This document shows positions 34,283-38,037 of a stretch of 41,617 nucleotides of DNA, piece after piece. Source of the DNA: Hyphomicrobiales bacterium. Its GTDB lineage: Bacteria; Pseudomonadota; Alphaproteobacteria; Rhizobiales; Aestuariivirgaceae. The stretch lies in the NCBI GenBank assembly GCA_025363755.1, contig JANYLQ010000010.1:1-41617 (forward strand), written 5' to 3'. A program made the position numbers and the translations under genes. Each line of letters starts with the position of its first letter. Position 1 is the first letter of the stretch. Under the pieces are notes generated by a model. The model was not told the DNA's origin. It searched no databases and worked only from the letters and a program-made list of their open reading frames with translations.

Positions 34283-34366
34283 ATGGGTCAAAAAATCCAA
34301 ACCACCATTCGACAAGTCTTGCAAGCTCAAGAAGACGACGTTGGGGGAGGTCACAACTTGCTATGA
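34283..34366 (+). CDS. 27-codon upstream ORF overlapping the HigA-like gene
   Basis: A short ORF (MGQKIQTTIRQVLQAQ then acidic, ending GGGHNLL) begins about 10 nt downstream of the promoter's expected start point and has its TGA overlapping the HigA-like ATG (ATGA). It could be a leader peptide for translational coupling or the last trace of a lost partner gene. It has no Shine-Dalgarno. No family is recognised. Confidence 0.35.
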   Translation: MGQKIQTTIRQVLQAQEDDVGGGHNLL

Positions 34367-34677
34367 ACTATGGATATACTGAACTATCGCTAGGAGAAAA
34401 CATAACAGCGGAGTTAGGCATCCGCAGGAAAGCTCCACCCGATGTGTGCGGCTTTGTGCAACACGAGATTTTGGCTCATCTGGAACTCACTGTAACTGAT
34501 GTTGCCATAGCTCTCGGCATAACCCGCCCAGCTCTATCAGGCCTGCTCAATGAATACGTGGACCCATCGCCCGAAATGGTACTGCCCATCGAAATGACCT
34601 TCGGCGATTCATTTGATCTCACTCATGCTCGCCATCTTTACGACGACCGGTACCACGTGAAAATAATTCAGGCTTGA
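34363..34677 (+). CDS. HigA-like XRE-family regulator (antitoxin-like, orphan)
   Basis: 104 residues. Residues about 30-90 match the HigA/VapI antitoxin helix-turn-helix: HEILAHLELTVTDVAIALGI, TRPALSGLLN, SPEMVLPIEMTFG. The usual start of the fold (HPGEIL) is changed to QHEIL, and the N-terminal 28 residues are unusual. A HigB toxin normally lies just upstream; none is seen here. GGGGGAGG lies 12 nt before the ATG. The 3' end overlaps the convergent membrane protein by 59 bp. Confidence 0.75.
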   Translation: MNYGYTELSLGENITAELGIRRKAPPDVCGFVQHEILAHLELTVTDVAIALGITRPALSGLLNEYVDPSPEMVLPIEMTFGDSFDLTHARHLYDDRYHVKIIQA

Positions 34678-35087: not shown

Positions 35088-36257
35088 TCACATTTGGCTT
35101 TCAATCAACCGCTCAGCCAAGCCTGCCATGCGTTCTGCTTCAACATTGGCGAAGGCGAACCTTAAGTAATTCTCCTGACCGGGACCAAACATGGAGCCGG
35201 GGAGGCAGAGGAGGTCGTTCTCTTTGGCTAGGCGCATGGCGACTGACTTGGAGGTTTCGCCATCAAACGGATGCTTCACATAAGCGAAATAGGCTCCGCT
35301 GCCGACCAGTTCATATTTCAGTTCTGGTGTTTTAAAACTAGCGCGCATCGCATCAAGCCTGCCGCGCATGACAGCTTTCTTTTCCGCCTTCCAATCATCA
35401 AGCGCTGTCAATCCAAACAACACAGCACGTTGCGAAATTTGGGGTGGGCAGACCGTCATGGTGTCGAGGACTTTGGCGACTTGATGCAGCACGTCTTTGC
35501 CCGCGATGATCGCACCAAGCCTATAACCCGCGAGCGCATAAATTTTGGAAAAACTATAGAGTTGGATCAAAGTGTTTTGCCATCCATCACGCGCCAATAG
35601 ATTATGGGGCGGGGCGGGATCAGGACGGAAATCTTTGTAAGTTTCGTCGAGGATCAACGCAATGCCAGCGCTCTGTGCTACATTATAAAACTGATTTAAG
35701 ATCTCACTGGGATAAATGGCACCTGTTGGATTATTAGGCGAGCACAAGACAATGGCCCGCGTCCGACTGTCGATCAGTGGTGTTGCGAGTTCTGGCGACG
35801 GATGAGAAACGCCTTCCGAAAATGCGGGGATGGCGCGAATTTCAATGCCCATCATCGTCAACCACATTTGATGATTGAAATAATAAGGCACCGGAATGAT
35901 CACATTATCGCCAGCCTTGGCCACCGACATGATGGCCGCGGCAAAGGCCTGATTGCAGCCTGTAGTGATCGCCACTTCGTTGGCATCAATGTGAGCATCA
36001 TAATCAGCACTGATGTGCGCCGCATAAGCTGCGCGCAGCGGCATGATGCCAAATATATCGGTGTATCCCCCCGTTCCGGGCGCATGCGCCAACCGCGCAA
36101 TTTCATCCTGCAAGATTTCAGCCGGCGGATAGCTGGGCACGGCTTGGCACATGTTCAGAAGTTCGCGGTTTCCAGGCTCTGTCTTCACCCAACTCATCGC
36201 CTCGGCAATGGGTGGAAATTCAACGCGCGTGACCAAATCTGAAACTTCAAAACTCAT
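35088..36257 (-). CDS. Class I/II PLP aminotransferase
   Basis: 389 residues of the aspartate-aminotransferase fold. The PLP Lys238 lies in YSFSKIYALAGYRLG. Asp204 (LILDETY), Asn175 (SPNNPTGA) and Arg246 complete the cofactor site. The substrate-specific residues do not tell me the amino acid; it resembles AspC/AruH-like enzymes. The frame is open to 36455, but ATG 36257 has AGGAG upstream and gives the family length. Divergent from the Card1-like nuclease with only 41 bp between starts. Confidence 0.9.
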   Translation of the reverse strand: MSFEVSDLVTRVEFPPIAEAMSWVKTEPGNRELLNMCQAVPSYPPAEILQDEIARLAHAPGTGGYTDIFGIMPLRAAYAAHISADYDAHIDANEVAITTGCNQAFAAAIMSVAKAGDNVIIPVPYYFNHQMWLTMMGIEIRAIPAFSEGVSHPSPELATPLIDSRTRAIVLCSPNNPTGAIYPSEILNQFYNVAQSAGIALILDETYKDFRPDPAPPHNLLARDGWQNTLIQLYSFSKIYALAGYRLGAIIAGKDVLHQVAKVLDTMTVCPPQISQRAVLFGLTALDDWKAEKKAVMRGRLDAMRASFKTPELKYELVGSGAYFAYVKHPFDGETSKSVAMRLAKENDLLCLPGSMFGPGQENYLRFAFANVEAERMAGLAERLIESQM

Positions 36258-36278: not shown

Positions 36279-36300
36279 ACAATCTTTAGGGCAAGATTGT
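36279..36300. promoter_or_regulatory. Inverted repeat in the divergent promoter gap
   Basis: A perfect 8-bp inverted repeat (ACAATCTT 36279-36286 / AAGATTGT 36293-36300) with a 6-nt centre. It fills the gap between the aminotransferase and nuclease starts, touches the GTG start of the nuclease and contains its AGGG ribosome site in the centre. It could be an operator or an RNA hairpin over that site. Confidence 0.55.
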
Positions 36301-37066
36301 GCGCATGAACAGCGTGACAATTGAAACAATTTTAAAAGAGCGCGGTGCGTGGTTGAAAGCAACCCATGGTGACCCGAAAGTGGCGGAAGCAAACGCGCCT
36401 CTGTCGCGAATGATTGCGGATAATTATACACTGTTTGAAACAGTGCGAGATGCAATCTTCAGAGCGACGGAGGAGTATGTTCACCGCGTTCCCATCTTGC
36501 CACATGCGTTAAACAGCGCGGGTTTAGCGTTGCTCGAACAGATGGAAAAATATGCCATGGTCATTCGCGAACCTGGCGGCAATGCAATATGTGAAACCAA
36601 AAGCAAACGTTATCTTTCAGGCGGATGGTTAGAAGAACTGGCTTGGTTGGCGGCTATGGAAGCTGGTGCTGACGAAGCGATTTTTGGCCAGGTCATCGGA
36701 TGGAAAGTTAAAGAATTTTCAGGTGAGAACGAAATCGATCTGATCATTCGCGAGGGTGACAGATTGGGCTTTGTGTCGTGCAAGGCGCTGCGTTCGGAAC
36801 TTGATATACACGACCGCAAACATCGCAACCGGTTGATGGATGCTGTGCATGAGGCGGATAATTTATGTGACCATTTCGGCAGGCCGGGTGAAAAAGTTGC
36901 TGTGCTTGTCACGACTGATCTTTTTGATGAAGTGAAAGCCGCACCGCGCTATAATGCGCTGATGGGGAAAGCAGCTGTGCTCGATGTTGAAATAATTCCG
37001 CTTGAGGGCATCAGTTGGGAAAAACTAGTTGCAGCAGTGCAAACATTATTTAATGTTGTGAAATGA
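36299..37066 (+). CDS. Card1/DUF1887-type nuclease without CARF domain
   Basis: 255 residues. The C-terminal half matches the PD-(D/E)XK nuclease of Card1/Can2: YLSGGWLEELAWLA (Glu112-Glu113), NEID (Asp147) and FVSCKA (Lys162). A winged-helix-like part (about 70-103, LNSAGLALLEQMEKYAMVIRE) precedes it, as in Card1. The CARF sensor domain of full Card1 (about 150 residues) is missing; only about 65 residues lie before the winged helix. The third catalytic acid is Ser160. GTG 36299 has AGGG 7 nt upstream; ATG 36305 is the alternative. The stop overlaps the quinone oxidoreductase start (ATGA), so the two are coupled. Confidence 0.75.
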   Translation: MRMNSVTIETILKERGAWLKATHGDPKVAEANAPLSRMIADNYTLFETVRDAIFRATEEYVHRVPILPHALNSAGLALLEQMEKYAMVIREPGGNAICETKSKRYLSGGWLEELAWLAAMEAGADEAIFGQVIGWKVKEFSGENEIDLIIREGDRLGFVSCKALRSELDIHDRKHRNRLMDAVHEADNLCDHFGRPGEKVAVLVTTDLFDEVKAAPRYNALMGKAAVLDVEIIPLEGISWEKLVAAVQTLFNVVK

Positions 37067-38037
37067 TGAAAAAGATTTTGTTTTCAAAAGCTGGCGGGCC
37101 CGAAGTTCTTGAATATGTTGATGCGGAACTGCCGCCGCCCGCCGCAGGTGAAGTGCGCCTCCGCCACACGGCTATTGGTCTCAACTATGTCGACACTTAT
37201 TATCGCAGTGGACTTTATCCTTCACCCATGCCCAGTGGTTTGGGAAATGAAGCTGCTGGTGTGATTGAAGAACTGGGGCAGGGGGTTAAAGGCTTCAAAG
37301 TGGGCGACCGCGTTGCTTATGGTTCGGGGCCGCTTGGTTCTTATGCGCAGGCGCGAAATTTTCCTGCGAACCGATTGGTGAAACTACCAAAATCCATCAG
37401 TGATGAAACTGCGGCAGCCATGATGTTAAAAGGCATGACCGTGCGCTATCTGCTGCGCGCCACATACAAAGTGAAGCGCGGCCAATTTATTTTGATGCAT
37501 GCGGCTGCAGGTGGTGTTGGCCTCATCATGTCGCAATGGGCAAAGGCACTCGGTGTCAAAGTGATTGGCACGGCGGGCTCAGCAGAGAAAATGGAATTGG
37601 CGTTAGCCCATGGCTGCACGCATGTGATCAACAACCGCACTGAAGATGTGGCTGCGCGTGTGCGCGAGATTACCAAGGGCAAAGGTGTTCCGGTTGTCTA
37701 TGACAGCGTGGGGCAGGCGACGTTGCAAGCCTCTCTCGACAGCTTGTCGGTGCGCGGGCTGCTCGTGAGCTTCGGCAATGCTTCGGGGCCGATTAAGGAT
37801 TTTCAATTGGGGCAATTGGCGGCCAAGGGCTCACTCTATGTCACAAGGCCAACGCTTTATTCTTACATCATCACAGATGAAGAATTTAAAGAAACCGCTG
37901 ATGATCTGATCAACATAGTGAAATCGGGCAAAGTGAAAATAGCTATCAATCAGCGCTATGCTTTGGCTGACGTGGCACAAGCACACCGCGATCTCGAAAG
38001 TGGGAAGACAACGGGATCGACGATTATAGCGCCTTAA
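37063..38037 (+). CDS. Quinone oxidoreductase (NADPH:quinone reductase family)
   Basis: 324 residues of the zinc-free MDR family like E. coli QorA. Marks are AIGLNYVDTYYRSGLYP, LGNEAAGVIEELG, the NADPH motif AAAGGVG (about 148-154) and VYDSVGQATL. It reduces quinones or enones with NADPH. The ATG overlaps the nuclease stop, and a second ATG follows directly at 37066. It shares TTAA as overlapping stops with the convergent protease. Confidence 0.93.
   Translation: MMKKILFSKAGGPEVLEYVDAELPPPAAGEVRLRHTAIGLNYVDTYYRSGLYPSPMPSGLGNEAAGVIEELGQGVKGFKVGDRVAYGSGPLGSYAQARNFPANRLVKLPKSISDETAAAMMLKGMTVRYLLRATYKVKRGQFILMHAAAGGVGLIMSQWAKALGVKVIGTAGSAEKMELALAHGCTHVINNRTEDVAARVREITKGKGVPVVYDSVGQATLQASLDSLSVRGLLVSFGNASGPIKDFQLGQLAAKGSLYVTRPTLYSYIITDEEFKETADDLINIVKSGKVKIAINQRYALADVAQAHRDLESGKTTGSTIIAP

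Follow-up and report, generated by a model that had tools for sequence, protein, structure and literature searches.

A conserved Card1/Can2-type nuclease without a CARF sensor in Hyphomicrobiales, with a candidate relocated catalytic acid

The locus

The 41,617-nucleotide stretch of Hyphomicrobiales DNA analysed here (the window) carries on its forward strand an open reading frame that an earlier note, made from the sequence alone, had described as a Card1/Can2-type nuclease lacking the CARF sensor, overlapping a quinone oxidoreductase gene and divergent from an aminotransferase gene. That arrangement is borne out by the coordinates collected in Table 1. The frame encodes 255 amino acids from GTG 36299, with AGGG seven bases upstream, or 253 from ATG 36305. 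The close orthologs L017, L018 and L020 all start at the Met that is residue 3 here, which makes ATG 36305 plausible and perhaps the true start. On the other side, the mechanical aminotransferase frame (36455-35088, reverse strand) overlaps the nuclease start; with ATG 36254 as its likely start, about 45 bases lie between the two genes. Upstream of the aminotransferase gene, positions 34363-34677 encode a small HTH-type protein, with an HTH_3 match just below cut-off and no cluster member in the other loci compared.

Table 1. Features of the nuclease gene and its immediate neighbours
Feature	Position	Strand	Basis
CARF-less Card1/Can2-type (DUF1887) nuclease gene	36299..37066	+	Profile matches, alignment, hhalign
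Putative linker and helical/winged-helix-like subdomain that follows CARF in DUF1887, residues 6-100	36314..36598	+	Alignment, hhalign
GGWLEE, residues 108-113	36620..36637	+	Each residue in 40/40 distinct full-length sequences
NEID, residues 144-147	36728..36739	+	N144, E145, D147 in 40/40
SCK, residues 160-162	36776..36784	+	S160, K162 in 40/40; C161 in 39/40
Basic loop, residues 166-179	36794..36835	+	Alignment
Glu185, in the helix following the SCK strand; candidate for a relocated catalytic carboxylate	36851..36853	+	40/40
NADPH:quinone reductase-like gene, positional neighbour	37063..38037	+	ATG 37063 overlaps nuclease stop
Class I/II aminotransferase gene, divergent neighbour	35088..36254	-	Likely ATG 36254

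Domain structure

The gene is genuine and represents a conserved variant, without CARF, of a nuclease family already known. Its product matches PF09002 (Card1_endonuc) over residues 101-173 at 28.4 bits, above the curated cut-off of 26.4, in agreement with the original assignment to DUF1887, and all 19 members of family set A1 match the same model at E<=1. The PADLOC profile CARF4--CARF_PDDEXK (PDLC01880) aligns with residues 5-199 at E 6.6e-13, on profile positions 136-321 of 364, and a PDB search with the family profile returned Card1, VC1899 and Can2 (6wxw, 1xmx and 7bdv) at E 0.002-0.006. From homology to these three structures the nuclease domain is expected to adopt the PD-(D/E)XK fold. 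UPF0102, a different family, gives weak matches in 7 of the 19 members, the best at E 0.0033. The motifs on which the gene was first recognised, GGWLEE, NEID and SCK, all fall within the aligned chain at the residues given in Table 1.

Several lines of evidence place the start of this protein just beyond the sensor domain of its relatives. CARF_Card1 (PF23400) has no match in the window protein at E<=1, and the CARF part of the PADLOC profile is likewise left unmatched. Alignment by hhalign against CARF-bearing DUF1887 relatives puts residues 6-238 on positions 144-370 of 387 (98.6%, E 1e-15), so that the chain starts where CARF ends, and near the N-terminus TIExILKxRGAWLK lines up with (I/L)xxFLxxxG, a motif found right after CARF. 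In Can2, according to the excerpt of PMC7969007 consulted, CARF occupies residues 3-151 and the nuclease domain residues 166-366; given these borders and the start of the alignments, the gene encodes the post-CARF part. The relatives that were read have the same short form. The claim that the sensor is absent was originally argued from the roughly 65 residues preceding a winged helix. That region is not a short unrelated stretch: residues 6-100 align to the linker and helical subdomain that come after CARF in DUF1887 proteins.

Distribution and inheritance

The CARF-less family comprises 40 distinct full-length sequences, the window's included, all from the window's order, Hyphomicrobiales. 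They were drawn from 66 loci among which many genomes are repeated; 23 loci came from a search of genome contigs. Two loci read by six-frame search (L010 and L011) stand outside the alignment tables and trees, and four carrier matches from the window's own taxonomic family, two of them partial, lie outside the loci read. Known carriers number 43 genomes, 34 from the own family and nine from other families of the order, and the carrier MAGs are labelled Hyphomicrobiales, Alphaproteobacteria, Proteobacteria, Anderseniella or Thermopetrobacter. Counting the window's own genome each time, carriers make up 15 of the 297 genomes in the order sample and 34 of 69 in the own family (two as partial matches); a class sample, thinly spread and with few close relatives, gave 1 of 385, the own genome only.

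No match was found in 35 of the other 68 own-family genomes, some of which are incomplete assemblies. Such a distribution marks the gene as dispensable, and a core repair role is therefore unlikely. Where the gene is present it is under purifying selection, with dN/dS values of 0.047, 0.077 and 0.125 in three pairs whose dS, at about 1, is near saturation; in two more pairs dS was saturated. Searches of plasmids, phages and viral contigs returned no relative of the window nuclease, and a mobile origin was set aside on that result. Plasmid and viral-contig searches made with L095 and with L101, a CARF-bearing relative discussed below, gained nothing.

Gene neighbourhood

Neighbourhoods were surveyed at 35 loci, 26 from the own family, two of which end too soon, and nine from other families. 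At 19 of the 24 resolvable own-family loci an oxidoreductase gene lies no more than 202 bases downstream in the same orientation, mostly overlapping; five lack it there. Outside the family the oxidoreductase gene is found at none of the nine loci, and a weak aminotransferase match at one. Seventeen of the 35 own-family non-carriers were taken and 16 could be scored; in 14 of these the aminotransferase and oxidoreductase genes are adjacent without the nuclease, the former divergent and 43-234 bases upstream of the latter. With such a locus standing in non-carriers, the nuclease gene would have been either cleanly lost from it or placed into it. Conservation of the nuclease-oxidoreductase pair, a point to which the earlier note had attached some weight, thus holds through most of the own family but not beyond it, and the pairing is further loosened by the non-carriers; the oxidoreductase is a neighbour rather than a demonstrated partner.

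A second element of the neighbourhood reaches across families. A PCMT gene lies one to four genes downstream at three own-family loci (L035-L037) and at five of the nine loci from other families (L045, L046, L047, L049 and L050). At six of the eight its neighbour is a TolC-type gene (Pfam was run on the L035 copies only). This common neighbourhood is suggestive of an old shared position for the nuclease gene, followed by repeated loss.

The predicted active site

Residues E112, E113, N144, E145, D147, S160, K162 and E185 are invariant in all 40 sequences. By alignment, E145 and D147 are predicted metal ligands, the counterparts of Can2 E276 and D278 (PMC7969007). In the SCK motif a Ser replaces the Glu of the ECK seen in canonical members, and the catalytic Lys162 is retained. 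The basic loop that follows is longer in most members than in CARF-bearing relatives and is a possible nucleic-acid contact.

Canonical members read ECK and then mostly YK on the next helix, and the Lys of that helix was confirmed in VC1899, Can2 and Card1. The corresponding column was counted in 42 rows with NExD and ExK motifs, drawn from PF09002 matches among which some Vibrio sequences are nearly identical and a few frames are stray or partial; five rows that lacked the motifs, or had no residue at this point, were set aside. The column holds Lys in 36, Arg in 3, Gln, Val and Asn in 1 each, and Glu in none. For these matches a search of the class yielded the 78 genomes already given by the order. 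(One row of the PF09002 set reads W where E is expected.) Glu occupies the column in all four SCK-type proteins that bear CARF (L101, L150, L151 and L152). Within the CARF-less family, the most diverged ortholog, L016, has altered residues at H184, D187, N188 and D191 and keeps E185.

Ser160 runs through the whole family and always comes together with Glu185, and so it looks like the trace of a relocated rather than a lost acid. The pairing probably reflects a relocated catalytic carboxylate of the PD-xxK-E type. In Cfr10I, NgoMIV and others the acid of ExK has moved while the Lys stayed, an arrangement described as 'PD-XXK-E' (PMC551604), and the CCGG family follows the pattern PDX21-53KX12-13E (PMC4652773). 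The resemblance to Cfr10I, NgoMIV and the BsaWI family is an active-site analogy only: the proposed order of catalytic residues is the same, the acid coming later in the chain than the strand that bears the Lys (PMC551604, PMC4652773), but the spacing from Lys to Glu differs, being X22 in the window protein (K162 to E185) and X12-13 in the CCGG restriction family. It is X11 in L101. In the window protein the longer basic loop sits between K162 and E185.

Since the pattern fits a relocated carboxylate, the window nuclease is probably catalytically active. The initial reading, that the changed acidic residue leaves activity open, was right about the change, which is to Ser in all 40 sequences, but the invariant Glu185 may compensate for it. 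Active-site decay at Ser160 is for the same reasons, its family-wide occurrence and its association with E185, not the explanation of first choice.

CARF-bearing relatives and the origin of the Ser/Glu pair

The SCK form is not confined to proteins without a sensor. One CARF nuclease of this type, L101 (identical with L149), was joined by three more, L150, L151 and L152, through a search with the PADLOC profile. All four keep the CARF region, as judged by full-length PADLOC matches; of the three scanned with PF23400, L150 and L152 score above cut-off and L101 below it. The window protein has in common with them the SCK motif and the Glu in the 185 column, and only they have CARF. The L152 gene (L168, 9326-10471) lies among Cas10/Cmr2 and RAMP genes and a gene for a protein with RT and Cas1 domains, and that of L150 (L166, 2663-3811) adjoins a Cas6 gene and is about 9 kb from a RAMP gene. 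Ser with Glu thus occurs in what look like CRISPR effectors of type III loci. In these two proteins PF09002 is below cut-off or absent, so that profile scans can miss them.

Can2 and Card1, CARF nucleases of type III CRISPR systems (7bdv and 6wxw) defined by a DNase/RNase activity that cA4 switches, have the homologous nuclease domain, the linker and the helical subdomain in common with the window protein, along with the motifs GGWFE, NExD and CK. In contrast to them, the window protein has no CARF, reads SCK for ECK and Glu185 for Lys, and has a longer basic loop; the window holds no type III locus, and the Csm1 model finds no match in the protein's own genome. VC1899, an orphan CARF-DUF1887 protein of Vibrio (1xmx), resembles the window protein in being a DUF1887 nuclease outside type III CRISPR, but retains CARF, ECK and the helix Lys, and the excerpt of PMC7969007 consulted reports only weak RNase activity in vitro. 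In the parts of the sources consulted, a census defines Can1-2 as CARF-nuclease effectors (PMC11229360), and PF09002 is placed among the CARF families, with some VC1899-family genes outside CRISPR (PMC4012209). No description of a CARF-less family or of the SCK and Glu combination was found in the literature searched, though either may have been noticed before.

Other departures from the usual architecture were met along the way. In G755 the L101 gene is followed directly by one for a 1203-amino-acid TPR-repeat protein (L165, 9297-14110; these two proteins were the ones scanned), which is possibly a partner other than CRISPR. The L104 protein (928-1878, G795) scores above cut-off for Card1_endonuc, has a weak N-terminal zinc-ribbon below cut-off and no CARF match, making it a possible second CARF-less form of DUF1887; L129, L131 and L133, seen as segments only, have similar catalytic segments. 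Finally, a 932-amino-acid open frame in G798 (L148/L102) matches the CARF-nuclease profile with a degenerate motif, ACP against ECK.

Left out of the trees were L119, Vibrio sequences that nearly duplicate one another, frames that were degenerate or stray, and sequences shorter than 130 residues (66-row tree) or 120 residues (58-row tree); L109 was read in part. The larger tree, of 66 nuclease-domain rows, unites the 33 that lack CARF in one clade (97/76 among all rows) and places three SCK-type CARF rows next to it (99/92); L152 was too short for inclusion. A 58-row tree, from which the two diagnostic columns and long-branch rows were removed, recovers 32 CARF-less rows as a clade at 100/99, and groups them with the four SCK-type CARF rows by a split of only 89/30, at a point where long branches meet. 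A single origin of the Ser/Glu pair has support at 99/92 with the two columns but lacks it (89/30) once they and the long-branch rows are taken out; the pair may have arisen once or twice. If the origin is shared, the swap is a single event and not a replicated correlation.

Trigger and function

The absence of a CRISPR array, asserted previously for the window, stands up: no 16-mer is repeated there three times at CRISPR-like spacing. At the scale of the whole genome, searched with the Cas10 (Csm1) and SMODS cyclase models, there is no match to either. Among the 32 of the 43 known carriers that were run, the Csm1 model exceeds its cut-off in two (G726 and G729) and is weakly matched in three more, and SMODS is matched in 2 of 14 carriers (G119 and G223). 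That something else than cyclic oligoadenylate triggers this protein, one of the two possibilities first raised for it, follows most naturally; the oxidoreductase pairing noted alongside has been weakened.

The reading we favour, with moderate confidence, is that the window protein is a vertically inherited, chromosomal PD-(D/E)XK nuclease of Hyphomicrobiales, a member of the Card1/Can2 family that lacks CARF and is independent of cyclic oligoadenylate. Catalysis would be carried by E145 and D147 together with K162, and the acid that is normally a Glu at position 160 would be supplied by Glu185 from the helix that follows, giving the order D...xxK...E of Cfr10I and NgoMIV. Lacking CARF, the enzyme would not be gated by cyclic oligoadenylate, and the helical subdomain and basic loop may position nucleic acid directly. 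Its activity could be low, gated by structure or controlled through expression, and its role might lie in ordinary nucleic-acid metabolism, repair for example, rather than in CRISPR effector function. The evolutionary counterpart of this account, that an acid-relocated nuclease of CRISPR-effector type shed the sensor for cyclic oligoadenylate and passed into vertical inheritance on the Hyphomicrobiales chromosome, independent of CRISPR and with a different trigger and job, is more tentative, and we hold it as a working proposal.

Divergent placement beside a gene is typical of regulators. The aminotransferase gene stands in just this relation to the nuclease gene, and with the canonical ExK Glu missing the protein could be a dead nuclease, kept for DNA binding or structure through its helical/winged subdomain, perhaps as a regulator at the aminotransferase promoter. 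We consider this unlikely. The remaining catalytic positions, K162 included, are kept in 40 of 40 sequences, which would be unusual for a dead enzyme, and the possible compensating Glu185 is equally invariant. A local regulatory role, moreover, does not travel with the gene, because the neighbours differ in other families, as the counts of zero oxidoreductase genes and one weak aminotransferase match in nine loci attest.

Somewhat less probable again is a defence nuclease of the abortive-infection kind that arose from type III CRISPR effectors, or alongside them, and answers to a new trigger. Two of the four SCK-type CARF-bearing relatives do lie in type III loci, and the patchy presence of the gene in the own family (34 of 69 genomes) resembles that of defence genes. 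Against this, the locus is much alike across own-family relatives, the PCMT neighbourhood is partly common to own-family and other-family loci, the plasmid, phage and viral-contig searches were empty, and the Csm1 model is below cut-off in 30 of the 32 carriers. Functional coupling to the quinone oxidoreductase, as a redox-linked nuclease or through a redox-sensed trigger, draws on the close downstream gene at 19 of 24 own-family loci and is very improbable given the intact aminotransferase-oxidoreductase locus of 14 of 16 non-carriers and the count of 0 of 9 outside the family.

Implications

Work on nucleases with CARF domains treats them as switches that a second messenger of CRISPR throws. 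If a conserved family has the blade without the switch, it would show how such an effector is tamed, or put to use outside CRISPR, and as a natural sensor-free version it would help to explore what restrains the nuclease domain or turns it on. The Ser/Glu swap further predicts a relocated catalytic acid in part of DUF1887, proteins of type III loci included; if so, a scan for ExK only would call active effectors dead.
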